Of a DNA stretch of 41,923 bases, positions 15,651 to 39,306 are shown piece by piece. The DNA is taken from IMG/VR virus record IMGVR_UViG_3300028418_000524, positions 1 through 41,923 of that record. One strand, written 5' to 3'. This DNA comes from a virus. Each line of letters opens with the position of its first letter. The stretch's first letter is position 1. The notes beneath the pieces are model-generated. The model saw only the letters and a list, made by a program, of their open reading frames with translations, was not told the DNA's origin and made no database searches. A program made the position numbers and the translations under genes.

Positions 15651-16562
15651 TTATGTTCCTATTGCATTACCAAAAAGATATACATGAACTCTTGCCGCAA
15701 CATTGTATCCTCTTTTAAATGCCTTCTCTGCCACTTTACCAGCACTAGCAGTTTGTTCTTCTTCTCTTGCACCTACAGGCATGACCCAAACTGGCCAATC
15801 AACACCTGCTTCTTTAAATTGTTTGATTGCTGATTCCATTTCTTCCCATTCTCTATCATCGGGACCTACCACAAACTTTAATTGTCCTTTGTTGGAGAGT
15901 TTTCTATATTCTGCTACTATCTCAGGTTTGATTGCTTTCTCAGGTTTTTCACCTGATACTGTGAACAATTTAGGACTACAACTAAAGAATATTTCTGTAT
16001 CAATTCTGTTCACCCACTCTTTAAATGGCTCTCTTAACTTTTGTGTACCATTTGTTTCGAATGTCATTGAGTCTGGTAAGTTATTCTGTCTTTCAAGTTC
16101 TTCATATATTCCTATTGTAGCCATTTGTCCTGTAACCATTAATGGTTCTCCGCCTGTAATACATAAGTGTTGCCTTTGTCCTGTTACAGGATGTAAAAAT
16201 AATCCATTTGGATTACTTTCGTTTTTCATGATATCTACTATTTTGTTTGCTAGTACTGTGGGTGTTTCTTGCCCCATTAAACTTTTAAATTTCTTTGCCC
16301 ATGTGTAACTTGAGTCACATCCTTTATCCCATACAGGTAAATCTTCAACTCGTTTTACACTGGAAACGTCAAAGTCTTCAAATGGTAATTCATATGTGTC
16401 TGGATCGGTTGGATCTTTTTGTCCAAATCCATTGCATTGTAGATTACATAAAAAGAATCTAATCCATGCTGTAGGAACACCTGTATAATGTCCTTCACCT
16501 TGTATGCTGTGAAATATTTCTGAATAATAGTATTTTTTTTCTACTTCCATAACTCCGGACAT
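15651..16562 (-). CDS. queE: QueE-like 7-carboxy-7-deazaguanine synthase with split cysteine motif
   Basis: QueE converts 6-carboxytetrahydropterin to 7-carboxy-7-deazaguanine using a radical SAM reaction. Here SEIFHSIQGEGHYTGVPTAWIRF (14-36) and CITGGEPLM match the family. The Fe-S cysteines are C39-x3-C43, then a 38-residue insertion, then C82 in GCDSSYTW, which looks like the displaced third cysteine of the usual CxxCDTxxxW. The start may be 16562 or ATG 16550 (MEVEKKYY); both overlap the small gene at 16541. The operon has a consensus promoter at 17101-17129. This supplies the preQ0 pathway with FolE and the QueD-like protein. Confidence 0.88.
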   Translation of the reverse strand: MSGVMEVEKKYYYSEIFHSIQGEGHYTGVPTAWIRFFLCNLQCNGFGQKDPTDPDTYELPFEDFDVSSVKRVEDLPVWDKGCDSSYTWAKKFKSLMGQETPTVLANKIVDIMKNESNPNGLFLHPVTGQRQHLCITGGEPLMVTGQMATIGIYEELERQNNLPDSMTFETNGTQKLREPFKEWVNRIDTEIFFSCSPKLFTVSGEKPEKAIKPEIVAEYRKLSNKGQLKFVVGPDDREWEEMESAIKQFKEAGVDWPVWVMPVGAREEEQTASAGKVAEKAFKRGYNVAARVHVYLFGNAIGT

Positions 16563-17578: not shown

Positions 17579-18229
17579 TTATTTTATATTTTTATACTTT
17601 TTTTGTAATCTATTGAGTAAGATACCATATGCTGGTAAGAACACAATTAACCCAACTACAATTTTAGTAAGTGTATTGTTCTGTGCAACTATGTGCCAGT
17701 TTGCACCAATCCATGATACATTACCTTCTGCATCTAATGAACCTGCAAACGCAACATAAAAGAACGAGTAAGTATCAATTATGTTTGCCGCAATAGTCGA
17801 GATTGCCGGTGCCGCCCACCATGCCTTTGACTTCTCTCTGATTGCTTGGAATACATATACGTCAAGCATAGTACCAATAGCATAAGCAGTACCACTTGCA
17901 AATCCAACTCTGTATGCGTGTGGGTCACCTAATGCCAACAGTACAAGTACTGATGCAACGATTGCCGGAATGATTGCCATTGCAACAACGGCCCTTCCTG
18001 CTTCTTTGCCAACCATACGTACTGTAAGGTCAGTTGCTACTACAACAATCGGAAATGTAAACGCCGCCGCCGCTAGTGGAAACGATCCAAATAATGGAAG
18101 TTCCGCACCGGGGAATAAATCAAACCTGATTGTTACTAGATAATTTGACAAGGCAATTACTGCCGTGTGTAAAATAACTAGATTTCTAACAAGTGTTTTG
18201 TCAACACCTGCCAATATTGATTTTAACAT
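17579..18229 (-). CDS. yhhQ: YhhQ/VUT-family queuosine-precursor transporter
   Basis: A 216-residue integral membrane protein with about six helices. It contains PIVVVATDLTVRMVGKEAGRAVV and FASGTAYAIGTMLDVYVFQAIREKSKAWWAAP, signature parts of the VUT (DUF165) family. The E. coli member YhhQ imports preQ0 and preQ1. The ATG at 18229 follows TAGGAGGA, and a TTGACA-17-TAAAAT promoter lies upstream. In this window it sits beside QueE, FolE, a QueD-like protein and DpdA, so importing deazaguanine bases for DNA modification is the natural reading. Confidence 0.88.
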   Translation of the reverse strand: MLKSILAGVDKTLVRNLVILHTAVIALSNYLVTIRFDLFPGAELPLFGSFPLAAAAFTFPIVVVATDLTVRMVGKEAGRAVVAMAIIPAIVASVLVLLALGDPHAYRVGFASGTAYAIGTMLDVYVFQAIREKSKAWWAAPAISTIAANIIDTYSFFYVAFAGSLDAEGNVSWIGANWHIVAQNNTLTKIVVGLIVFLPAYGILLNRLQKKYKNIK

Positions 18230-18769: not shown

Positions 18770-19092
18770 TGTACAATATACCTCGCTCCTCCTGATACTA
18801 GCATTGCCAGTAGTATCGTGTTTAAAACTATTAATGCTCTGTCATGCCATCTTATTCCTACCCATAACCATGCCGCAGTACCTATTACTGAGAACGCAAC
18901 ATCATATATTTTTGGAACCTCATCTATGGATCTGCATAGCACCGCACAACAAACAAAAAATACACCAATCCATTTCACGTACCAAGTTGCATCATGCAAC
19001 GGTGTGACCTTGCGAACACTGGTCAATTGACCTTCTAGTGTTTCTATCTGATCTTCTATTTCATCTATTCTTTTATTTTGTGTATTGCTCAT
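18754..19092 (-). CDS. Small membrane protein with coiled-coil head
   Basis: Residues 1-30 form a short coiled coil (RIDEIEDQIETLEGQLTSVR). Three hydrophobic helices follow at about 37-53, 62-80 and 86-104. The segment TAAWLWVGIRWHDRALIVLN is similar to a segment of the 82-residue membrane protein at 8938-9186. The ATG overlaps the end of guaC by 20 bases and the stop overlaps the next gene. Function unknown. Confidence 0.68.
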   Translation of the reverse strand: MSNTQNKRIDEIEDQIETLEGQLTSVRKVTPLHDATWYVKWIGVFFVCCAVLCRSIDEVPKIYDVAFSVIGTAAWLWVGIRWHDRALIVLNTILLAMLVSGGARYIVQWLMM

Positions 19093-20128
19093 AGACTTTA
19101 TTGATAGGGTTATGTGTTGTTACAAAACTTGCACACTTGGCCATGTCTTTGAGTCTTCTTGCACCGATGTATGTACAAGCACTTCTTACTCCGCCTAGTA
19201 TATCTTCGACTGTGTTATTAACAGGACCTCTGTCGGGCAGTTCGATTAATCTACCTTCGTTGCCTCTGTATCCATCTTTTCTTTTACCATGCACCTCTCT
19301 TGCACGATCTGAACTCATTCCGTAAAATTCTCTTCTGCCAGTATCTAAATTAACTTCTTCTTCGGACTCATCGTGTCCTGCTAACATACCACCTATCATG
19401 ACCATATGGGCACCACCACCAAATGCTTTTGCAATATCTCCTGGATGTACACAACCACCATCTGCCATTATGTGTCCACCAACACCGTTGGCCGCATCTG
19501 CACAATCTACGATTGCTGAGAATTGTGGTACACCAACACCAGTCATTGTTCTTGTAGTACATACTGATCCAGGACCAATACCAATTTTAACAACGTCAGC
19601 ACCATTAATAATTAATTCTTCTGTCATTTCGGGTGTTACTACATTACCTGCTACAATTACTTTGTCGGGATATTCATCTCTAACTCTTGCAACAAACCCA
19701 ACCATGTTTTGATGGTATGCATTTGCAACATCTATTGTAATCATCTTAACATCTGGAAAACTTTTTAATATTTCTTGCATATTAGCATAATCTTGTGCAT
19801 TATCGTCGAATACTTTGTTTGTACCTGTGCATACACTAACACTTTGTAATCTAACACCATTGCCTACTGCCGCTTTCCATTGCTCGGGTGTAGTTGTTTT
19901 TGTTATTACAGTCATCATCTTATGTTCTTGTAATGCTTTTGCCATAGAGAATGTACCTACGCCATCCATGTTACTTGCAAAGATTGGTGTGAAGTTCATA
20001 ACTTTGCCTGAATTTCTAAATGTAAACTTACGTGTCATATCTACATCTTTACGAGATGTAAGTGTAGAACGTTTTGGTTGTAATAAAACGTCTTCGAAAT
20101 TTAATTTTGTTTCGTAATTAATCCTCAT
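19073..20128 (-). CDS. guaC: GMP reductase (GuaC), IMPDH/GMPR family
   Basis: GMP reductase converts GMP to IMP and ammonia with NADPH. The 351-residue length (E. coli GuaC 347) and absence of CBS domains favour GMP reductase over IMP dehydrogenase. Visible motifs: FEDVLLQPKRSTLTSR (11-26), ASNMDGVGTF (51-60), the catalytic loop KIGIGPGSVCTTR with C190, and MADGGCVHPGDIAKAFGGGA. EFYGMSS further on matches the family flap region. It overlaps the next gene by 11 bases. In a phage making 7-deazaguanine it may adjust guanine pools. Low similarity to IMPDH cannot be excluded as an alternative activity. Confidence 0.85.
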   Translation of the reverse strand: MRINYETKLNFEDVLLQPKRSTLTSRKDVDMTRKFTFRNSGKVMNFTPIFASNMDGVGTFSMAKALQEHKMMTVITKTTTPEQWKAAVGNGVRLQSVSVCTGTNKVFDDNAQDYANMQEILKSFPDVKMITIDVANAYHQNMVGFVARVRDEYPDKVIVAGNVVTPEMTEELIINGADVVKIGIGPGSVCTTRTMTGVGVPQFSAIVDCADAANGVGGHIMADGGCVHPGDIAKAFGGGAHMVMIGGMLAGHDESEEEVNLDTGRREFYGMSSDRAREVHGKRKDGYRGNEGRLIELPDRGPVNNTVEDILGGVRSACTYIGARRLKDMAKCASFVTTHNPINKVYEQYTK

Positions 20129-20423
20129 TTTCTTCTTTCTCTCTAGTTTCGCACATTTGCTTTACTGCTTGATAATGATCATATGCTTGTTGTAGTGCAG
20201 GGTATTTCATTCTCAAATCTTCTTCGAATAAATCTTTTTCGCCATTTAGGTCATCAAATGTATAAGTGAAACCTTCAGTACCAGGATCTAAACTATCTAT
20301 TGTTCCTGTTCCGATCGTAGTATAATCAGTAGATTCTGCTAGATCAAATGAAACGTCAACGCCGTCAATGTCACCAGACATCGCTATTCCATCTGATGTC
20401 AATTTGTCTTTTTTCTTACCCAT
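20118..20423 (-). CDS. Small acidic phage protein, unknown function
   Basis: A 101-residue acidic protein. A lysine cluster (MGKKKDK) precedes a glycine- and aspartate-rich beta-type region (DGVDVSFDLAESTDYTTIG) and a C-terminal helix EEDLRMKYPALQQAYDHYQAVKQMCETREKEENED. The C-terminal pattern (YPALQxAxxxY) is remembered from cyanophage hypotheticals. It lies between folE and guaC with short overlaps on both sides. Function unknown. Confidence 0.62.
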   Translation of the reverse strand: MGKKKDKLTSDGIAMSGDIDGVDVSFDLAESTDYTTIGTGTIDSLDPGTEGFTYTFDDLNGEKDLFEEDLRMKYPALQQAYDHYQAVKQMCETREKEENED

Positions 20424-21138
20424 GACCCTTCATGCTCATACAAATTTTATAAAATTCGTCTCTGGTTGCTGGATCTTCTTTGAAATGTCCAAGCATAATT
20501 GCAGTGGTCATATCAGATTCATGTTCTCGTACGCCTCTGTGTGTCATACAATGATGTTCTGCTTTTACTACAACTGCAAGATTCTCAGTCTTTGCATATT
20601 TTTTTAATTCGTCTGCAATCTGTGTAGTCATTTCTTCTTGTATTTGTGGTCTTTCTACTATATGATGTACAATCCTATTAAACTTTGATAATCCAATCAC
20701 TTCACCGTTTGGAATAATACCTACCCAGGCCTTGCCCACAATGTTCTGGAAGTGATGGGCACAGGTTGATCGAATCGATATTGGTCCACTGGTGTACATA
20801 CTTTTGTAACCCATGTTGGGAAAACTTGTAACTCTTGGTGCTGGTTTAAATCTACCACCAAATGTTTCTCTGATGTACATCTTGGCCACACGTTTTGCAG
20901 TTTCCTGTGTGTTGTGATCGTTTTCTGTGTCAATAACAAGACTGTCTAACACACCTTGTAGTTTTTCTTGTACTTCTGCTTGTAACTTATCCATCTCACC
21001 TTCTTCTATAAATTCAGAGATGTTGTCATTGGAATGAAATCTTTTGCCTGCTTTTTTAATTCTTTCTTTTATTTGTTTACTAATAGGATCATTTGAATTA
21101 TCCCAAGTGTCTTGCAATTCGTTTATAATATCACTCAT
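20416..21138 (-). CDS. folE: GTP cyclohydrolase I (FolE)
   Basis: FolE opens GTP to 7,8-dihydroneopterin triphosphate, the first step of both folate and 7-deazaguanine synthesis. The zinc and substrate motifs are clear: ISIRSTCAHHFQNI (cysteine and histidines) and VVVKAEHHCMTHRGV (second cysteine and histidine). GEVIGLSKFNRIV and ERPQIQEEMTTQIADEL complete the core. The 240-residue protein has an N-terminal helical extension of about 40 residues. It lies one base from galE's end and overlaps the next gene by 8 bases. Its likely product use here is the preQ0 branch. Confidence 0.92.
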   Translation of the reverse strand: MSDIINELQDTWDNSNDPISKQIKERIKKAGKRFHSNDNISEFIEEGEMDKLQAEVQEKLQGVLDSLVIDTENDHNTQETAKRVAKMYIRETFGGRFKPAPRVTSFPNMGYKSMYTSGPISIRSTCAHHFQNIVGKAWVGIIPNGEVIGLSKFNRIVHHIVERPQIQEEMTTQIADELKKYAKTENLAVVVKAEHHCMTHRGVREHESDMTTAIMLGHFKEDPATRDEFYKICMSMKGHG

Positions 21139-22179
21139 TTAATTTATTTTCTTTTTGTTGATTGTATTATTCCATTTTACAGCAGTTGATACAATATTGT
21201 CAATAGAACTGTTGTCTGGATTCCAATTTAAATCTGCTTTTGTTCTAGAAATATCAGCAACCAACATATCTGGATCACCTTCTCGTCTAGGATTAATTGT
21301 TATTTCCATATTTCCTGCATATTTTTGCACAGAGTCTAACATCTGTTTGTTCGATGTAGGAATACCCGAACCAAGATTGTACGAAGCACATTTAATTTCA
21401 TTGCCTACTAAATTCAATGCTTTTAAATGAGCATCTGCAATATCCATGACATGGATGTAATCTCTAACACAGGTTCCGTCCTTGGTGTTATAGTCATCGC
21501 CATTTAACTTAAAACCTTTACCTGACATAGCGGCCTTAATGGCTAGTGGTATAATATGTGTTTCTTCAGTTCTTAATTCACCTACTTCTGCTTCTGGATC
21601 TGCCCCTGCGGCATTGAAGTATCTTAAACTAATACTGTTAAAATCATATGCAGTATTGTAATCACGTAACACTTGTTCTATCATTAATTTACTTGCACCG
21701 TATGGATTGATAGGTTTTAGGAATTCGTCTGAGTCTTTACATATACCGTCTTTTGGAATTCCATAAACTGCCGCACTAGAACTAAAAATAAATTTTTTAA
21801 TGCCTGCAGAATGTAGATAATCAAGTAGTTGTAAAGTCATTACCACATTGTTCTTGTAATACTTTGTAGGATTTTTTACAGATTCGCCTACGGCGGTGTA
21901 TGCCGCTAAATGCATACATGAATCTACATTATATCGTTTAACAATCTCATCTAAACGATTCATTTCTTGAGGTAAATTTAAGTTAAACGCCAATCCAAAT
22001 GAAGTTGCCCATGGCTTCTCTTCAATGTTATGATCTATAACAATTGGTGTGTGTCCGTTTTTAGATAGGACTTTGCATATGTGTGAACCAATATATCCTG
22101 CTCCGCCAATTACTAGAACGCATTTATTGTTAATGCTAGTATTTGGATTCGCAGACTGGTGTTCTATAGTGTCTTCCAT
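21139..22179 (-). CDS. galE: UDP-glucose 4-epimerase (GalE)
   Basis: The NAD-binding motif GGAGYIGSH is at residues 25-33 after an 18-residue extension, the catalytic Y160-x3-K164 is in NPYGASKLMIEQ, and FSSSAAVYG and YFNAAGADPEAEVGE are typical GalE blocks. Length 346 is normal. GalE interconverts UDP-glucose and UDP-galactose. The 5' end overlaps the glycosyltransferase by 44 bases, so the two are coupled, and the product may supply that enzyme with a sugar nucleotide. Confidence 0.9.
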   Translation of the reverse strand: MEDTIEHQSANPNTSINNKCVLVIGGAGYIGSHICKVLSKNGHTPIVIDHNIEEKPWATSFGLAFNLNLPQEMNRLDEIVKRYNVDSCMHLAAYTAVGESVKNPTKYYKNNVVMTLQLLDYLHSAGIKKFIFSSSAAVYGIPKDGICKDSDEFLKPINPYGASKLMIEQVLRDYNTAYDFNSISLRYFNAAGADPEAEVGELRTEETHIIPLAIKAAMSGKGFKLNGDDYNTKDGTCVRDYIHVMDIADAHLKALNLVGNEIKCASYNLGSGIPTSNKQMLDSVQKYAGNMEITINPRREGDPDMLVADISRTKADLNWNPDNSSIDNIVSTAVKWNNTINKKKIN

Positions 22180-23314
22180 CTCTTCTCCATTGTTCTCCCG
22201 TGCCTGTCATAATGTCTACCATTCTGTCTATTGTACCGTCTGTCCAATCAGAAATTAAACCTATACTAGGGGATGGTTTTGTTAATAATACTTTTAATTT
22301 TTCCATTGCGTCTCTACCAGACCATGGAACGTACATTCTTGTTTCATCATTTGCGAATGTTTCAGGAAACGATCTATATGCAGGAAATAAAACGTTACAA
22401 CCCATTGCATCTGCTTCTGATACTGTGTTGGATACCCAATCTTGTAATGCACAGTTAAACAATACTCTTGAATCTGCAAGTATATCGTAATACTCGTTCT
22501 TCTTAAGGTTCTCATATATTTTAAGTGTGCCTTCTTTTTCCATCTGTCTTGCTTGATCAACATACACTTGGTTGTTGCTTCTCAAAGGTCCTCCGCAACA
22601 GATTGCAAATTCTACTTCGGGCAATAGTTTAGTATTGTGTTTCCAGTGTCTGATCATATCCATAAAAAATGCAGGTTGTTTTTCTTGATCCCAACGAGCA
22701 CCAAAAATAACTCTCATTTTTCTTTCTTCAAATGGTTTACGTTCTGGAACTCTGCTTTGTACTTCTTCTTTGCCAAAACTCAAACCTGATATATTGTATA
22801 TAGGTGCGTTCCAATTTGCGATACGCATATGTGCAACCATTTCTTCGTTAGTTGCAAGTATATTAACATTTGGTATTTCATTACACATCTGTTCATACAA
22901 AGACATCCATTTACTCATACCCCAAACGTGTACAAAGTCATCAGGATCGATTGCCTGTGCTAGACATCTCAAATATATCTTTGGTCTATGTTTCTCTTCT
23001 ACTTGGTGTAATATATAAGGAAGTGATTCCATACCTGGTTGAAACATATCTTCAAAGAATATGATATCTTTACTTGTGACCCTACCATTACGCATCATCT
23101 GTACTAGGTTCATCATCTGGCTCATGCCAAAGTATGATCTACCATGTGCATCAAGCACCTGTCCAACACTGATTGCTTTTGTGTCGTCTATTGTAGTTCC
23201 TGGAACAATAGTGTAATCAATTCTTCTTTTCTTGTATGCTCTCTCTGTCCAGTCCTGTAACTGTAATGTGTATCTACCCTCGTATGGCTCTAGGCCCATG
23301 TAAAATATTTCCAT
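22136..23314 (-). CDS. GT-B type glycosyltransferase
   Basis: The 392-residue protein has the two-domain GT-B look. The C-terminal half has RVIFGARWDQEKQPAFFMDMI, a typical start of the nucleotide-sugar domain, a LADSRVLFNCALQDWVSNTVSEADAMGCNVLFPAYRSFPE block matching the E-x7-E type region, and NDETRMYVPWSGRD. Group 4-like enzymes of this form transfer sugars to lipids, proteins or other acceptors. It overlaps galE. The acceptor might be phage DNA or a host surface component; nothing in the sequence decides. Confidence 0.78.
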   Translation of the reverse strand: MEIFYMGLEPYEGRYTLQLQDWTERAYKKRRIDYTIVPGTTIDDTKAISVGQVLDAHGRSYFGMSQMMNLVQMMRNGRVTSKDIIFFEDMFQPGMESLPYILHQVEEKHRPKIYLRCLAQAIDPDDFVHVWGMSKWMSLYEQMCNEIPNVNILATNEEMVAHMRIANWNAPIYNISGLSFGKEEVQSRVPERKPFEERKMRVIFGARWDQEKQPAFFMDMIRHWKHNTKLLPEVEFAICCGGPLRSNNQVYVDQARQMEKEGTLKIYENLKKNEYYDILADSRVLFNCALQDWVSNTVSEADAMGCNVLFPAYRSFPETFANDETRMYVPWSGRDAMEKLKVLLTKPSPSIGLISDWTDGTIDRMVDIMTGTGEQWRRDGRHYRTPVCESKY

Positions 23315-23959: not shown

Positions 23960-24280
23960 TTACTTTGCCTCCTTTATTAATTTAACATCGCCTTTGCTGG
24001 TGTGTCTTATTTTGTGTTCATTCTTGAGTGCAAGGTGTAAAAATGTTTCGTATTTTTCTTCTTTCACCATGAGAGTTACACAATCATCACTTTCATCATC
24101 ATATCCATGATATGCCCAAATGAAATCTTTTCCATATCTCATACCTAGATTGCCTGCTGTGGTACAGATATTTGCAACAGCATCAACAAATGTATATGAG
24201 GCATTCAAGGCTCCTCCGCCTATAGGTATGTAACCCATTCTTGTTGTTGCTCTTTTTTCTTTTATACTAACTTCTTTCAT
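23960..24280 (-). CDS. Small phage protein, unknown function
   Basis: The start is taken at ATG 24280 (MKEVSIKEKRATTR...), overlapping the previous stop by 14 bases. A longer in-frame start at 24319 would extend far into that gene. The 106-residue protein holds MGYIPIGGGALNASYTFVDAVANICTTAGNLGMRYGKDFIWAYHGYDDESDDCVTLMV, which looks like a small alpha/beta domain with one glycine-rich turn. No family recognised. Confidence 0.58.
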   Translation of the reverse strand: MKEVSIKEKRATTRMGYIPIGGGALNASYTFVDAVANICTTAGNLGMRYGKDFIWAYHGYDDESDDCVTLMVKEEKYETFLHLALKNEHKIRHTSKGDVKLIKEAK

Positions 24281-24707
24281 AAACTGCGTGTGATCCGTTT
24301 TCTCCATCTTCAGAAACATCTATTTCTATTTTTCTGCCTGGATATTTTTTTGTTATTGCTACATATAAATCATCTGACATCATTTCACAAGATTTGTAAT
24401 CTAAACTCATTGTGCCATCTGCATACATATTTTCCATCCATCTTTTAAATTGTATAAATTCTATATCTCTGTCATCGTGGAATACTTCTATTGCTACCTT
24501 AAAGTGGAATATGTGTCTGTGAGGATAACCTAAAAAACTAACGTCATACATATCGCCTGTTGCTAGTTTTGGATCATCAAGTGCCGCTGGATACTTGTGG
24601 ATACCTTCTTTACGAAAGGTAACCCATATCATTTTACTGCCTTGTTTGGCTTGTTCTACTAATGCAACGTCTCTTAATTGCTCTGTGCTGATACTACCGT
24701 CGGCCAT
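24267..24707 (-). CDS. queD: QueD/6-pyruvoyltetrahydropterin synthase-like protein lacking the catalytic cysteine
   Basis: The fold order matches the T-fold QueD/PTPS family. GIHKYPAA (H37) resembles the first zinc ligand, PHRHIFHFKVAIEVF (H63, H65) the HxH zinc pair followed by a beta strand, EFIQFKRWMENMY the xxDFxxLKxx helix, SCEMMSDDLYVAI the PTxExxAxxI helix, and IEIDVSEDGENGSHAVYE the last strand with the conserved glutamate. The cysteine expected just before the HxH is absent (VSFLGYPHRH). It may run an altered reaction or be a diverged relative. The start could be 24707 (after GAGGAT) or ATG 24632. Assignment is by eye and tentative. Confidence 0.5.
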   Translation of the reverse strand: MADGSISTEQLRDVALVEQAKQGSKMIWVTFRKEGIHKYPAALDDPKLATGDMYDVSFLGYPHRHIFHFKVAIEVFHDDRDIEFIQFKRWMENMYADGTMSLDYKSCEMMSDDLYVAITKKYPGRKIEIDVSEDGENGSHAVYERS

Positions 24708-25228
24708 ATTTGTCTATCCTCTATTGGTTCGTCTTGTTTATATTCATCCCATGTTGTAACACCTGCTTTGGATTTAAAGTCTTCCATGCTCATGGTCCAT
24801 ACACCTGTGTTTGTCTTGTTAAAGTCTATGTCATCTATTTTAAAACAAAGTTTTTTATCTTCCTCACTATTTTCAAATATTACAGAACAAAACGGTATAA
24901 ACTTTTCGTGTTGCCAAACTGCACTATATCTCTTTTTAACTTCGTTGTGTATAGCATATTGATAGTCAATAGTAACAAAGTACCCATCATTGAGTAATTT
25001 GTTTATTTGTAAAGGTTGATTTGCTATGTTATTTAGAAAACTTCTGTTAGCACCAAAATAAACTGCTTCTACATCGGCTTTAACACATAACTCTTTTATT
25101 TGATCGTATGTTAAATCATTTCGAGCCAGAAATAATGTTTGTAACCCATATGCCGGAGTGTGTTCTACCTCTTTACCAGAGAACACTTTTACATCTTCTT
25201 TTATTCCTGTTGTATAATCTCGAATCAT
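24674..25228 (-). CDS. Conserved T4-like phage protein, unknown function
   Basis: A 184-residue protein with blocks I recall from T4-like cyanophage hypotheticals: GKEVEHTPAYGLQTLFLARND, VYFGANRSFLN, and a C-terminal KIDDIDFNKTNTGVWTMSMEDF. It contains no membrane helix or obvious catalytic motif. The ATG is right after a perfect TTGACA-16-TATAAT promoter with no ribosome site, so the transcript may begin at the start codon. It overlaps the QueD-like gene by 34 bases. Function unknown; the conserved GAN/IDDID parts suggest a nucleotide- or metal-binding role only by analogy. Confidence 0.68.
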   Translation of the reverse strand: MIRDYTTGIKEDVKVFSGKEVEHTPAYGLQTLFLARNDLTYDQIKELCVKADVEAVYFGANRSFLNNIANQPLQINKLLNDGYFVTIDYQYAIHNEVKKRYSAVWQHEKFIPFCSVIFENSEEDKKLCFKIDDIDFNKTNTGVWTMSMEDFKSKAGVTTWDEYKQDEPIEDRQIWPTVVSAQSN

Positions 25229-25461: not shown

Positions 25462-26904
25462 CTATTCAAATAATGAACTAAAGTTATTTTTACCTTTTCC
25501 GCCGCCTGTTGCTCTTTGCCATCTAGTTCCTCTTATATCTGCTAGAAAACTAGAAGCATTAGATATTACTTCCATTGGTTTTTCGGAAGTGAATACTTCT
25601 TCAACTAAAGTATTAAAATACAATATATTCCTTGGAACATACTCACTCATTTCGTCAGTTGTATCAGAACCTTTAGTTTTTCTCCAATGTCCAACTTGTG
25701 GTTGGTATTTTAAACGTTCTATGTCGTTTAAATCATTGGCAGTTTGAACTGCTCTAATTTGATTGTATACATTGTGAGCCATCATTAATACATATGAAAA
25801 ACTATCCCAACTAGTTTTTCCTTCTTTGTTGTTTTTATTTAGGTCGCCTTCGCCGTACCAACAAATATCTTTCATCTTTAATCTATCTCCAATTGCACTA
25901 GCAAAAGGAAAACTGATGTTAGATCCTTTTAATCTTTTGTCATCTGGTGCTTTGTCCATAATAAAAGAGAATCTGCTTGGTGTAAATGTGTTCTGTGTAT
26001 AAACTAAACCGTTTGCAGTTGATAAGAATGCCGAGGCAGAATCAAAACTAATTGTAAAGTTTTCGTTGATATGCTTTCTAACTTGTCTTTGCACTTGTGT
26101 TAAGTAGCAGGCCCAATCTAATTGCGATGTACCAAGTACGTGCATCCAGTCCTTGCCATCTAATTTTTTCTCGTCTCTCATTATAATTAGACGTTTAAGC
26201 ATAACTTCCATGTCACACATATTAATACCGCCCATTGCCCAGCCTTCAAATTCAAAATCTTTTACAGTATCATACCATATTTGTGCTGATTCCCAATCAT
26301 CGCCTTGCAGTACATTTAAGAATTTTGTTTGTCCTATTCTATTTTTTTGAAAGAACTTGTTATTGTATATTGTTCCATCTAGACAGTCTTGAAAACTTGT
26401 TAGTCCTGTCTTTGGACTATTAAGATCATCTGCCGCCCAACTAGGAACATCTAGTGTCATTGCCCAGTCTGATGTTAATTCTAACCAGTTAAGTATGTTA
26501 CTTCTAACGGCGTTTGCTTTGTTACCTTCAAAATCTTTCCAATCAAATTTGATTACACCTTTTCCTAATTGATATCCACCTGAGTCACCTACTATCGTAC
26601 TAAATTTTCTATCTCTGTTAACAACCATAGAATCCCTGTCTGCAACTTTGTTCATATCTAAACAGGCGTGTCCTGCCGAATACAATGCAGTTGGGTAAGT
26701 GTACATACCTTCGTCTGGATTAATAAAATTTAATCCTTCGACTCCACTATCAAATCCTTGTGGAATTCTTTCTGCAGGAATATGTGTACCACCAGTTACT
26801 CTTTGTTTTGAAACAAATGTATTATAAAAATTTGAGATAGCAGGCAAGAATACTGCGAAGTCTCTGCTTAACTCTCCTAAATGTTCTTGCCTTTTATCCG
26901 TCAT
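25462..26904 (-). CDS. dpdA: DpdA-like DNA 7-deazaguanine transglycosylase (TGT superfamily)
   Basis: TGT-family enzymes swap guanine for a 7-deazaguanine; DpdA proteins do this in DNA. The motifs are in TGT order: GDSGGYQLGKG (D107, general acid site), LTSDWAMTLDVPSWA (D152), FLNVLQGDD (Q200-G201), WAMGGIN (G225-G226), HVLGTSQLDWACY and then TISFDSASAF (D288, at the nucleophile position). Length 480 suits DpdA better than tRNA TGT (about 380). No tRNA-TGT zinc motif (CxCxxC) was seen. The C-terminus ...NNFSSLFE resembles the polymerase clamp-binding tail. The gene overlaps the sliding clamp gene by one base (TAATG). Confidence 0.8.
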   Translation of the reverse strand: MTDKRQEHLGELSRDFAVFLPAISNFYNTFVSKQRVTGGTHIPAERIPQGFDSGVEGLNFINPDEGMYTYPTALYSAGHACLDMNKVADRDSMVVNRDRKFSTIVGDSGGYQLGKGVIKFDWKDFEGNKANAVRSNILNWLELTSDWAMTLDVPSWAADDLNSPKTGLTSFQDCLDGTIYNNKFFQKNRIGQTKFLNVLQGDDWESAQIWYDTVKDFEFEGWAMGGINMCDMEVMLKRLIIMRDEKKLDGKDWMHVLGTSQLDWACYLTQVQRQVRKHINENFTISFDSASAFLSTANGLVYTQNTFTPSRFSFIMDKAPDDKRLKGSNISFPFASAIGDRLKMKDICWYGEGDLNKNNKEGKTSWDSFSYVLMMAHNVYNQIRAVQTANDLNDIERLKYQPQVGHWRKTKGSDTTDEMSEYVPRNILYFNTLVEEVFTSEKPMEVISNASSFLADIRGTRWQRATGGGKGKNNFSSLFE

Positions 26905-27641
26905 TATTGCGCCTGTGCCGGGATTATGTATTGATACTTGCCTAATCCTGAGTCTACAGTAATCATCATTGCACCTTCATTTGAAAAATGCAACATAACT
27001 TTTGCTGAATCAGACAGTTTAAGTATTTGTAATACCTGTGCAACTGGCCAACTCCAACCTTTATTAAGACTTCCACTTACTTCGTTAGCAAATACAAATT
27101 CTCCACCGTGTGATGCTTGATCACCAAAAGTGAAAATTAAGTTTCCTTCCTCTGTTCTAACAACAAAAGAATTGTGTTCTGTGTTTGCTACTGATTGAAA
27201 GTTGAATCTTTGTACACTAGCCACTGTAGGTTCAATTTCAACGTCCCACTTAACACCCTTAAATTTAACAGTCTTAAGTTTCTCGTTGATAATTTCAGCA
27301 TTCATAAATCTGTAATCGTTCTTAAAGTCACCCTTTTCATTCTCAAAGTGTATACCTGTCGGAACTGTGGCTCCATTTCTTTCGCCTGATAGTACAGTTA
27401 TTTTTGCTTTGTCTTTATATTCCGGACACTTCAGGTGGATATCTAATTTACCCAACTGAGGCATTCCAAACGTGCCAGACATTTCTGCTTGTGGCTTATT
27501 AAAGGTTCCTTGCAAGATTACTGATCTGTCTTCTGCCATACTGTCGATTGCAGTCTCTTTGTCGTCTCCGGAGATTTTGACAAGATCTAAAAATCCTAGT
27601 CCATGCGTGTGTTTAACTATGTCTTGTAAGATATCTTTCAT
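26904..27641 (-). CDS. 45: Sliding clamp (T4 gp45 type)
   Basis: The 245-residue protein resembles T4-like clamps (T4 gp45 is 228 aa): MKDILQDIVKHTHGLGFLDLVKISG at the start, an early beta-domain with QLGKLDIHLKCPEY, and repeated strands such as FVVRTEEGNLIFTFGDQASHGGEF and KVMLHFSNEGAMMITVDSGLGKYQYIIP at the end. The clamp ring tethers DNA polymerase and, in T4, is also required for late transcription. It precedes DpdA by a TAATG overlap and has its own promoter at 27651-27679. Recognition is by pattern; its place directly beside the polymerase gene supports it. Confidence 0.85.
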   Translation of the reverse strand: MKDILQDIVKHTHGLGFLDLVKISGDDKETAIDSMAEDRSVILQGTFNKPQAEMSGTFGMPQLGKLDIHLKCPEYKDKAKITVLSGERNGATVPTGIHFENEKGDFKNDYRFMNAEIINEKLKTVKFKGVKWDVEIEPTVASVQRFNFQSVANTEHNSFVVRTEEGNLIFTFGDQASHGGEFVFANEVSGSLNKGWSWPVAQVLQILKLSDSAKVMLHFSNEGAMMITVDSGLGKYQYIIPAQAQ

Positions 27642-27699: not shown

Positions 27700-30363
27700 T
27701 TAAAATTCAAATAATGAATTAAAAGTGCTAGATTGTGTAGTAGATTTTAAATCCCAATTCAATACTCCAATTAGGTTATCTAATTTACCATCAAGCACAG
27801 TTTCTTCCATAGCATCGTTATCAAATGGAAGTTCTTGGAACCATCGAGGGATTCTTAATTCGTCAACGGGATATGCAACCGATGTATAACCAAGTGGATT
27901 GTTTTTCAACTTACACACAATTACCTTTGCACCATCTAGTATAGGTAAACTAAATTTATCTCCATATATTTCCCTACACCTATTCCAATTCATACTTGCC
28001 CTTACGTGGCCTGGCATATTTGCTCTGCCTTGTTTTTCTTCTGCGGCAGTATATTTGGTCATATTATTTGCTCTTTTTGGTGAACCAATTTCCCACCCTG
28101 CCATTTGTTTAAATTTTTGTCTAAATTCTGTAATTGCTTCAAGTACTTCTTCTTCGCTATTACCTGTTAGCACCATGTATAAGATGTCACTTAAAAAGTC
28201 TTGAACAAATATTGGTGTGTCAGATCTCTTTAAATCTAACCCCATTGCTTTTACTTTTCCTTCTTTGCCATTAATATCTAAACGATCTCCTTCGAGATCA
28301 TATATCAATGCCGCATATCTTTTCTTTGTAATAAACAAACCTTTTGATGCTACTGCTTCTCTACCACCTTTAATAACTTCTCCTCTAGATTTAGGACAAT
28401 GAAATGCTTTTGACATAAATCCAGGAAATGTAGTATTTGTTTCTTCTGCAATTTTATCATACAACGCAATTACTGATTCCTTAGTCCATTCTATATTACC
28501 GGCATCAATATCTTTTTTCAAAGTTTTATAGGCTGAAAAATATACAGAATCAGTATCACCATATATTATTGCTTCGCCTCTGTGGTCATATTTGCCTGCT
28601 ACAATTTCATTAATCTTTGATCCCATATGCTTTGTAATACATCTACCTGTTAGTGTTACTGATTGTCCGATTCTAATGTCAAAGAATCTACAACCAGGAT
28701 TTAGTATTGCACCATACAAACTATTTAGATTAATTTTCTTAACAAGTTGTCTTTTATCCCAGTATGATCTTTCAATTTCGTTGTCACCACAAGCCGCTTT
28801 TTTACGTTGCATCTCTTGTCTTTCAGCATACCAACGTTTTAATAGTCCTGGAATAATCCCTTCAAACTCATATGTGAATATAGTACCATTTGCAGATAAC
28901 ATCCATTGATTGTTTCCATCAAATATTATTTCATACAGTTGTGCCGCTGACATCTTTACTGATGTTTCATCTGCCCAGTCAATCACAACTTCCGTTGCTT
29001 TGTCTTTCTTCATAACTGCTTGATATTCCCAACATCCAAATTGTCCATCCCAAGCACTTGCAAATGATTTCTTTTGAGCCTTTGCTCTGTTTATTTCAGC
29101 AGATGTTATCACAGGACGTATTTGTCCTACAATAGTTTCAGGTCCCATGTTCAATGCTCTAATAACAGATGGATACAGAGAATTAATGTCAACAGATCCT
29201 ATCCAGTCTTGTAATCCTTTTTGCGGAGTTGCCACGTGAGCACCTGCCGCCGATACCGGCTCTGCATCTTTGTCTCTGTACTTTCTACCCGGCACTTGCA
29301 TACCACGTCTATGTGCTTCGTTAACAATCGCTTGTTCAGTAACTGCTACTGCACCCATTGTAGTTTGTAGCAACACAGTATTTTGGTGTGCAATCTCATT
29401 GGCTAGTTCTATGAACCTTAATTTTTTTTCAAGTTTGGCCAGTAGTGCAGTATCTTGTCTGTTGTATTCTATAAACAATCCAAAGTCTTCGTTGTACAAT
29501 CTGTCTAAAGATCCTTCATATACAGTTTTCTTTTCACCCAATTCATGTTCACCGATTGCATCTAATCTAAAACTGTGTCTTTCTTCATATGTGTATTTTC
29601 TGTAAAGTTCTAACAAATCTAAATGTACTCGACCGATAAGATCAAAACTTAATTGTTCTCTGCCATATTTTTCAAATAATCTTCTCTTTGGTTTTTGTCC
29701 CCAAAAACAAAGACGTCTTGTGTCATCTGAACTTAATACTTTTTGTATTCTACCTACTGTGTATGGAATATCGTATCCTTCTGAATTCCACCCACTTAAA
29801 ATATCAGCATCTTCGATTAAAGTTAAGAATGCATCTAACATCTCTTTTTCGTTATCAAACAGCATTGTATTATCAAATCTTTCTGTCTGTAACAATGCAG
29901 TTGCCATGTTCATTCCTTTTGGAATTTTAGCAAAAGTGACTAATTGATCTGTCCAACTCATGTAACAACTTATTGCAGTTATTGGCATAAACGGATCATC
30001 GGTTGAAGCATATCCACGTTCAGGATCAAAGTCTACTTCAATATCAAAGAAACATACATTTAATTTTGGAGATTCTTTTCCAAGATAATTTTCTTCTAAA
30101 CATCTAAAAACAGGATTAATGTCGTTCTCGAAAAGTTTTTTGTTAGATCTTATTCTCTGTTCTTTAATGAATTCTTTTTGAGTACTGCATTGTATTTTTT
30201 GTAATACTTCACCTGTCATGCTTCTGTGCTTACCTCTAGCATCTGGATAATAAAACACATACCTAGCATCGTAATCTACAAAGACTCTTTCGCCTTTTTC
30301 ATTACGTTCAACTACATAAACTTTATCTTCGTCTTTTTTGTATAAGGCGTCTATATAACTCAT
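27700..30363 (-). CDS. 43: Family B DNA polymerase (T4 gp43 type)
   Basis: An 887-residue replicative polymerase (T4 gp43 is 898). Proofreading motifs: FFDIEVDF (Exo I), ILSGWNSEGYDIPY (Exo II), EYNRQDTALLAKL (Exo III). Polymerase motifs: SVDINSLYPSVIRALN (A), KKINLNSLYGAI (B) and IIYGDTDSVYFS (C, with the catalytic D-T-D). The C-terminal tail SSTFNSLFEF resembles the clamp-binding peptide of T4/RB69 polymerase. The start overlaps the preceding membrane-protein stop by 4 bases. All catalytic residues appear present. Confidence 0.97.
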   Translation of the reverse strand: MSYIDALYKKDEDKVYVVERNEKGERVFVDYDARYVFYYPDARGKHRSMTGEVLQKIQCSTQKEFIKEQRIRSNKKLFENDINPVFRCLEENYLGKESPKLNVCFFDIEVDFDPERGYASTDDPFMPITAISCYMSWTDQLVTFAKIPKGMNMATALLQTERFDNTMLFDNEKEMLDAFLTLIEDADILSGWNSEGYDIPYTVGRIQKVLSSDDTRRLCFWGQKPKRRLFEKYGREQLSFDLIGRVHLDLLELYRKYTYEERHSFRLDAIGEHELGEKKTVYEGSLDRLYNEDFGLFIEYNRQDTALLAKLEKKLRFIELANEIAHQNTVLLQTTMGAVAVTEQAIVNEAHRRGMQVPGRKYRDKDAEPVSAAGAHVATPQKGLQDWIGSVDINSLYPSVIRALNMGPETIVGQIRPVITSAEINRAKAQKKSFASAWDGQFGCWEYQAVMKKDKATEVVIDWADETSVKMSAAQLYEIIFDGNNQWMLSANGTIFTYEFEGIIPGLLKRWYAERQEMQRKKAACGDNEIERSYWDKRQLVKKINLNSLYGAILNPGCRFFDIRIGQSVTLTGRCITKHMGSKINEIVAGKYDHRGEAIIYGDTDSVYFSAYKTLKKDIDAGNIEWTKESVIALYDKIAEETNTTFPGFMSKAFHCPKSRGEVIKGGREAVASKGLFITKKRYAALIYDLEGDRLDINGKEGKVKAMGLDLKRSDTPIFVQDFLSDILYMVLTGNSEEEVLEAITEFRQKFKQMAGWEIGSPKRANNMTKYTAAEEKQGRANMPGHVRASMNWNRCREIYGDKFSLPILDGAKVIVCKLKNNPLGYTSVAYPVDELRIPRWFQELPFDNDAMEETVLDGKLDNLIGVLNWDLKSTTQSSTFNSLFEF

Positions 30364-37613: not shown

Positions 37614-38633
37614 TTAGGCTACTTTAACTTTTTCAGCAATAGCATCCATTTTGCACGGACACCACTGCACAGGGCAAGTGATATAGTCACTGTGTATTTT
37701 AAAGTCTTGGTCTGCTATGTTACCCATGTTAGAAGTTCTTTTTCTTATCAACGAGCAGGGATATATGTCTCCACCTGGCTCAATGTAAAACCTACGTGAA
37801 CCTGCTGAACATTTCCACCCTTTAAAGGAGTGTTGCTGATTTACTAATACATTTTGCCACTCGACTCGTTTATTATCAAAGTACATTGTGAGAGGCCAAA
37901 TAAGTTCGTTACCAGGAATGTTGTATATTTTTCTATCAAAATTAAATCTATGCTTCATTTTGTTTTTAATATAGTCTAACATTTCTTCACTGTATCCGTC
38001 TATGATATTACCAGTGTTTAATGCATCAACATCTTTGTCCACAGGTCTCAATACTTTTGTTACTGTGTCTACAGGTAAATTTTTATTAACACGTTCTAAA
38101 AGATTAATAATTTTATCAAAGTGTCTAGGATCCAACATAAAATTTGCATTGGTTAGATATTTGCTTGATGCTATTTTCAAATTAGAATAAAACAATTCCG
38201 GATCACACATATCAGCATGATAACTGAAATTAAAGATAATAGATTTATACAAGTTTTTTTCAACCATTGTGTTAAACCATCTGTTGGTTCTACTGCCGTT
38301 TGTATCCAACTGTAATATTATTTGTTGTTTTTTATCAGCAAAAAACTCTTGCACAGCAGTTCCAAACTCGATAAGTTTAGGCCAAAGTGTTGGCTCACCG
38401 CCTATCAGTTCAAATATTATATGTGCATTCTCAGGTGATTGTTTTGATAAGGATTTTATAAAGTGTAATGCATCTTCGTATTTAGGAAATCCATACTTGC
38501 CATCATGCAAATGATCTGGACAATATGAACACGAAAAATTACAAGTTGTCGTAAAACTCCACGTAACATAAATTAAATCGTTTGCGGTTTTACCCGGGAC
38601 ATAACCACCAACCTGTTTAACATCATTTAACAT
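37614..38633 (-). CDS. SPASM radical SAM protein C
   Basis: The motifs are TTCNFSCSYCPDHLHDG (CX3CX2C), LIGGEPTLWPKLIEFG, and a C-terminal GWKCSAGSRRFYIEPGGDIYPCSLI then CPVQWCPCKMDAIAEK. The 339-residue protein is the first of three tandem paralogues on the - strand. Its ATG overlaps the end of the QueC-like gene by 11 bases, so the PP-loop enzyme and the radical SAM enzymes are probably one unit. Substrate unknown. Confidence 0.88.
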   Translation of the reverse strand: MLNDVKQVGGYVPGKTANDLIYVTWSFTTTCNFSCSYCPDHLHDGKYGFPKYEDALHFIKSLSKQSPENAHIIFELIGGEPTLWPKLIEFGTAVQEFFADKKQQIILQLDTNGSRTNRWFNTMVEKNLYKSIIFNFSYHADMCDPELFYSNLKIASSKYLTNANFMLDPRHFDKIINLLERVNKNLPVDTVTKVLRPVDKDVDALNTGNIIDGYSEEMLDYIKNKMKHRFNFDRKIYNIPGNELIWPLTMYFDNKRVEWQNVLVNQQHSFKGWKCSAGSRRFYIEPGGDIYPCSLIRKRTSNMGNIADQDFKIHSDYITCPVQWCPCKMDAIAEKVKVA

Positions 38634-39306
38634 TGTTAAATCCCCATTTTCGTTCTTTACACCACCAACATTTATTACAATGACCTATACCTGGATCAGG
38701 AACATCTTTCTTCCATTCCTCACTATTTGTTTGCCAATAAATGTCGTACTCACAAGATCTCGTAATTGGAAAAAGTGAATCTAATAAGTTTAATTCTTTA
38801 TACATTTCTGCAATTATTTTTTTATTGATATTTGTCCATGGTGTATACCAATATCTGTTTGGAATTAATTCGTCAATGTTTAATTTAGTACGTGGATTTT
38901 TGTTTCGTGTGGATTCTGTGGTTTCTAATCCAAATGTATCTGTTATTTCTTTGGGCGGATTTGCAGTTACTCCTGTATAGATAACATTGACATCGTTTAG
39001 ATATGTTCGAAGTTTTGGCCATAAATTTGCTGGTGTTTGTGTTTTACAATAACTGCTATGATGTTCAATATTTGAATTGCCAGTTAGTTGTATACATTTT
39101 TCAATAACATTATTTGCAACTAAAACATTATATCTATTCCGGTCGTTGTTACCAGTAGTAAAAATATGTAATTTATCAGATGAATGCTTCATTAACAAAT
39201 ATAAAAGTAAACTACTATCAGTACCCCCACTACAACTTATTCCAAGTGGTCCTTTATAAATGTCTAAGGGTACATTGGCAACTGTGATGGTATCAACAGG
39301 AGTCAT
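38623..39306 (-). CDS. queC: QueC-like PP-loop ATPase
   Basis: The N-terminal ATP-pyrophosphatase loop is SGGTDSSLLLY (26-36). The C-terminal zinc site has four cysteines: C185 in ITRSCEYD, and C210, C213 and C216 in HCNKCWWC, in the same order as QueC (7-cyano-7-deazaguanine synthase), which makes preQ0 from CDG. IYTGVTANPPKEITDTFG loosely matches the QueC iGvN...D segment. The 227-residue length fits QueC (about 230). The central region is diverged and the gene sits with radical SAM genes rather than with queE, so another PP-loop function is possible. Confidence 0.58.
   Translation of the reverse strand: MTPVDTITVANVPLDIYKGPLGISCSGGTDSSLLLYLLMKHSSDKLHIFTTGNNDRNRYNVLVANNVIEKCIQLTGNSNIEHHSSYCKTQTPANLWPKLRTYLNDVNVIYTGVTANPPKEITDTFGLETTESTRNKNPRTKLNIDELIPNRYWYTPWTNINKKIIAEMYKELNLLDSLFPITRSCEYDIYWQTNSEEWKKDVPDPGIGHCNKCWWCKERKWGFNNVK

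Follow-up and report, generated by a model that had tools for sequence, protein, structure and literature searches.

Why does a putative DNA base-exchange enzyme end in nearly the same short peptide as the DNA polymerase encoded nearby? The window, the whole stretch of DNA that was analyzed, is a 41.9-kb virus record (41,923 nucleotides), and its minus strand encodes, in order of transcription, a DNA polymerase, a 245-amino-acid sliding clamp, and a 480-amino-acid DpdA-like protein (Table 1). The initial annotation read the end of the last of these as a sliding-clamp-binding tail. Translation of the open reading frames (ORFs) verified both peptides that it compared, NNFSSLFE for the DpdA-like protein and TFNSLFEF for the polymerase; positions 25462-25500, where it placed the tail, comprise exactly the dpdA stop codon and the last 12 codons, and the clamp gene does directly precede dpdA, with a TAATG stop/start overlap.

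The polymerase, clamp, and dpdA locus

Table 1. Coordinates of features discussed in the text
Feature	Position in the window	Strand	Remarks
Family-B DNA polymerase, 887 aa	27700..30363	-	ends STFNSLFEF, then stop
DNA polymerase C-terminal motif FNSLFEF	27703..27723	-	
PCNA/gp45-fold sliding clamp, 245 aa	26904..27641	-	Foldseek PCNA
Clamp A224 codon	26970..26972	-	aligned with PCNA P234 of the PIP-box pocket; L/V in FF-tail genomes
Clamp T124 codon, interdomain connector	27270..27272	-	aligned with PCNA I128; E/D/A in FF-tail genomes
DpdA-like TGT-fold guanine/7-deazaguanine exchange enzyme, 480 aa	25462..26904	-	Foldseek, motifs, context
DpdA C-terminal clamp-docking-type motif NNFSSLFE	25465..25488	-	residues 473-480; key F475, L478, F479
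FolE, GTP cyclohydrolase I	20416..21138	-	
QueE-like radical SAM, 7-carboxy-7-deazaguanine synthase	15651..16562	-	below curated cut-off
QueC-like, marginal	38623..39306	-	PF06508, 22.1 bits vs cut-off 22
YhhQ-type queuosine-precursor transporter	17579..18229	-	
QueD-like candidate	24267..24707	-	HRHIFHFK motif, no family match; function inferred
GT-B-like glycosyltransferase	22136..23314	-	recurrent dpdA neighbor

The AF2 model of the DpdA-like protein (pLDDT 88.3) has a TGT-type TIM-barrel fold, for which the best Foldseek match was Z. mobilis TGT (E 4e-8), and DpdA 7ui4 was also matched (E 1.3e-5). D107-S108-G109-G110 and D288 were invariant in 46 sequences, and we infer that D107 and D288 correspond to the catalytic pair Asp102/Asp280 of Z. 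mobilis TGT, which is accompanied by a DSGG motif. TGTs carry a C-terminal zinc site, CxCxxC...H; neither this motif nor a CxC pattern occurs in the window protein. Searches of Pfam, PHROG, and NCBIfam, and of the PDB by single sequence or profile, returned nothing credible. With the zinc site absent, membership rests on fold, motifs, and context, hence the name DpdA-like.

The context resembles that of phage DpdA and DpdA2, which likewise have the TGT fold and adjoin genes for preQ0 synthesis (Hutinet et al. 2019, PMC6884629). The presence of FolE, a QueE-like protein, YhhQ, and a marginal QueC in the window makes a preQ0-fed DpdA the natural reading. Homologues of the QueD-like candidate were found in 203 of the 216 related loci of at least 11 kb, and the GT-B-like glycosyltransferase, or its counterparts in phages PA5oct and Phosso, lay near dpdA in 199 of them; in PA5oct, the glycosyltransferase gene follows dpdA immediately. 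The recurrence of this glycosyltransferase suggests a sugar-bearing 7-deazaguanine base. A 184-amino-acid protein of unknown function (24674-25228, minus strand), with relatives in 204 of 216 dpdA loci, may belong to the modification cluster. A GMP reductase gene (19073-20128, minus strand) adjoins folE, and its product perhaps adjusts the guanine nucleotide pool during modification.

On its predicted fold, the 245-amino-acid protein is a clamp: the single-chain model (pLDDT 91.5) matched PCNA in Foldseek with an E value of 3.8e-12, probability 1.00, and TM 0.68. By sequence, Pfam, NCBIfam, and the PDB (single or profile) gave no credible match and only an unnamed PHROG was hit, and a profile comparison with T4 gp45 gave no signal. 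The clamp gene lay immediately before dpdA in 147 of the 148 loci containing both, and with the polymerase gene also near, this arrangement suggests that dpdA is expressed together with the replisome. In five other jumbo phages with a window-type clamp, DpdA was not detected. A 440-amino-acid ORF behind the clamp of SCTP-2 was considered and was not DpdA.

Conservation of the tail and comparison with chance

The window's DpdA-like protein ends in GKGKNNFSSLFE, followed by the stop codon. Its last 21 residues (460-480) have pLDDT below 50 and are predicted to be disordered, which indicates that the tail is a flexible appendix. DpdA was traced through approximately 280 contigs and, at greater distance, to phage PA5oct (39% identity), Sinorhizobium phage Phosso (29%), and Vibrio phage 2.275.O (27%). 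Loss of the tail in close homologues would have spoken against the initial annotation, and FSSLF[ED] was kept in 65 of 65. All eight codons of NNFSSLFE vary synonymously among 76 close relatives, with the residues fixed except for one E-to-D change.

An F-x-x-L-F-type motif was present at the homologous site in nearly every clamp-adjacent DpdA, in relatives down to approximately 36% identity, including the DpdAs at 36-52%. Examples are FANLFEEV at the very end of one protein of 41% identity (L353), FSDLFDI in another (L351), and FNSLFDV in PA5oct. In a clade at 57-63% identity, the motif takes the form N-x-[FYIV]-x-x-[LMI]-F with an invariant last F, and it stands approximately 25-36 residues before the end, followed by an acidic extension. 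Distant clamp-adjacent DpdAs keep [FYIVLM]xx[LMIF]F. Exceptions were A or S at the first residue in one subclade, H or T for L in a few proteins, W for the motif F in L431, and a protein without a clear motif in L447.

Away from the clamp gene, the Phosso DpdA, whose gene is distant from it, ends in a weak VEGLF, and a DpdA of 30% identity with no clamp or polymerase nearby (L354) has no motif. The presumed DpdA2 of the T4-like Vibrio phage nt-1, taken to be the 464-amino-acid ORF between folE and queC, has no such tail, and so the motif is not a general DpdA feature; a PF01702 search in nt-1 returned nothing. A scan using the Vibrio phage 2.275.O DpdA alone gave no match. An internal TSSLFG in the DpdA of Voja-6 was given no weight, since Voja-6 had no match to the window clamp or polymerase. 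The nt-1 ORF immediately before folE (L347, 236415-237095) ends in KENSLANFF, loosely like TLESFFG, the tail of the nt-1 gp43.

Among the long ORFs of the window, only those of DpdA and the polymerase end in this way. Across five related genomes, FxxLF occurred within the final nine residues of 7 of 2393 ORFs, namely four polymerases, two DpdAs, and one unknown protein. Each genome's polymerase tail was also compared with the C-terminal 45 residues of every ORF in that genome. With the window polymerase tail, DpdA scored 26 and the next ORF 16. DpdA was the top non-polymerase match in three of six genomes (the window, G001, and Vibrio phage 2.275.O); it ranked lower in G002 (L112) and was not the top match in PA5oct. 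With the gp43 tail as the query in T4, gp55 ranked second and gp33 fourth, so that this control recovered two proven gp45 clients, whose sliding clamp-binding motifs (SCBMs) have been described (PMC7892883).

Several other proteins with polymerase-like tails were observed. The best non-polymerase match to the G002 polymerase tail was a 163-amino-acid orphan ORF (L112, 15652-16143) that ends in TNFNSLFS and has no relatives among the related loci compared. In Phosso, where the polymerase ends in FNDLFTF, a 290-amino-acid protein annotated as a glycosyltransferase (L165, 3052-3924, the same as L499, 7053-7925) has the closely similar ending QLSDLFDFG. It is weakly similar to TAGT and alpha-glucosyl-HMC transferase, has no relatives in the viral collection, and is possibly another clamp-borne DNA modifier. 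The 135-amino-acid unknown protein of Phosso gene 228 (L498, 2988-3395), located between folE-like and queE-like genes, also resembles the polymerase tail in its ending, NLNDLFDFG. The PA5oct polymerase itself is encoded by two ORFs that flank a Hef-like homing endonuclease (L082, 8608-13834), and the sequence at the joints looks like that of an intein.

Covariation of the DpdA tail with the polymerase and the clamp

In some genomes the polymerase tail carries -FF- in place of -LF-. Among 166 non-redundant genomes, an -FF- polymerase was found in 13 of the 14 with an -FF- DpdA compared to 1 of the 152 others (both 13, discordant 1 and 1, neither 151); the genomes in this table are related to one another, and a Fisher p value from it is not a chance probability. 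In one clade both the polymerase and DpdA carry FFEF; a contig of this kind (L360) encodes a polymerase with EVMDNFFEF and a DpdA with EVMDTFFEF. The two proteins also match in Vibrio phage 2.275.O, ending in NNTDLFDW and NNNDLFGW, respectively.

On a polymerase tree built without the tail, the polymerase FF arose four times; the DpdA FF was present in three of these cases, and clamp position 224 had left A in all four. Under length-weighted random placement, three or more shared branches would coincide with a probability of approximately 1e-4. Strict independent-pairs sign tests had three or four informative pairs, and hence low power, and gave p values of 0.125-0.25.

Clamp columns 124 and 224, chosen after looking at the data, were the best two of approximately 245 in separating FF from LF genomes. 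They were aligned using a human PCNA sequence that we presume to be correct. I128 and P234, their PCNA counterparts, are listed among the residues of the PIP-box pocket (PMC8468184). In phages outside the sample from which the columns were picked, position 224 was M, M, and L in GAP32, 121Q, and RaK2, which have GFF polymerases, and A in Atu_ph07, PA5oct, and Phosso, which have LF. Vibrio phage 2.275.O (V), L425 (I), and SCTP-2 (L) fell cleanly on neither side.

Probable docking on the clamp and its possible purpose

Given the conservation of the tail and its covariation with both the polymerase tail and the clamp columns that correspond to the PCNA peptide pocket, the best reading of these sequences and models is that DpdA very probably binds the phage clamp in the pocket used by the polymerase. 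Its C-terminus would be a short linear docking motif carried by a flexible linker, occupying the same hydrophobic pocket of the PCNA/gp45-type clamp as the polymerase tail. The clamp trimer could hold both proteins together, or DpdA could take the clamp after the polymerase leaves. Tethering would raise the local concentration of DpdA on the freshly synthesized phage duplex and restrict its action elsewhere, and the tethered enzyme may then work processively, replacing guanine by 7-deazaguanine selectively in phage DNA that is being replicated. The exchange would ride behind the fork, as the initial annotation supposed.

It is possible, though unlikely, that the tail docks on the clamp for a purpose other than coupling to replication, such as a role on leftover clamps, in late transcription, or in competing with the polymerase for timing. 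T4 gp45 carries the transcription factors gp33 and gp55 through motifs of this kind, and clamp binding by T4 alpha-glucosyltransferase was not the main determinant of the share of DNA modified, for which expression mattered more (PMC13216743). The near-constant gene order described above, which suggests co-expression with the replisome, argues indirectly for replication. A second alternative is improbable: the partner of the tail would be the host beta clamp, which takes QLxLF-like peptides, or some other replisome component shared with the polymerase. FSSLF and NDLF do resemble the bacterial beta-clamp motif, and any partner could be common to the polymerase and DpdA, but a PCNA-fold clamp of the phage itself is encoded between these two genes and the tail variants covary with the pocket positions of that clamp. 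That the resemblance reflects chance or common descent without function is hardly credible: although the motif has few residues and AT-rich genomes encode F and L often, six of the seven FxxLF tails noted above belong to polymerases or DpdAs, the residues stay fixed while their codons change, the tails covary, and descent cannot explain a tail shared by two proteins that are not homologous.

Docking of DpdA on the clamp could also be part of a larger arrangement. A rather doubtful extension is that the clamp serves as a tool belt for the whole modification module, in which DpdA exchanges guanine at the passing fork and the recurrent neighboring glycosyltransferase decorates the 7-deazaguanine, which would yield a sugar-bearing base not yet described. 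The Phosso glycosyltransferase with its polymerase-like ending QLSDLFDFG belongs to this picture.

Clamp-docking tails as such are textbook knowledge. DNMT1, a eukaryotic PIP-box client of PCNA, is like DpdA an enzyme that modifies DNA and carries a peptide for the pocket of a clamp, here one of the same fold and with aligned pocket positions; however, DNMT1 copies methyl marks and has its PIP box at the N-terminus, whereas DpdA replaces the base and its motif is C-terminal. The SCBMs of T4 gp43, gp33, and gp55 resemble the DpdA tail in being short hydrophobic-acidic C-terminal motifs on a linker. Their bearers in T4 are the polymerase and late transcription factors, whereas here the bearer is a TGT-fold enzyme, and the consensus here is FNxLFEF or xxFFEF compared to SLDFLxx in T4.

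The closest likeness is T4 alpha-glucosyltransferase, also a phage DNA-modification enzyme associated with the phage clamp. It binds gp45 according to Sommer et al. 2004, as cited in PMC13216743, and the association was confirmed by pull-down (PMC13216743). It transfers glucose to hmC, whereas DpdA exchanges the base. Its C-terminus ranked only 18th of 275 against the gp43 tail, and this low score indicates that it probably binds the clamp otherwise than by a gp43-like tail. The initial annotation held that the coupling was undescribed. This stands for the tail on DpdA, as the searchable literature, which covers few subscription journals, yielded no description of a clamp-docking tail in DpdA or another enzyme of base exchange; it does not stand for clamp-bound modifiers, for which T4 alpha-glucosyltransferase is a precedent.

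The proportion of G modified to 7-deazaguanine in phages ranges from approximately 0.02% to tens of percent (PMC6884629). For this group, a clamp-docking tail would offer a direct and testable answer to how DpdA reaches the right DNA and to what sets the modification level, and the covariation of polymerase, DpdA, and clamp means that tails which match or mismatch a given clamp already exist in nature for use in binding experiments. Annotations would also follow for hundreds of phage clamps and DpdAs that now have none. If the reading is true, base exchange joins the short list of DNA modifications linked to a replication clamp. Taken together, these data suggest that, in a large and mostly marine group of phages, the enzyme that chemically marks the DNA is tethered to the replication machinery.
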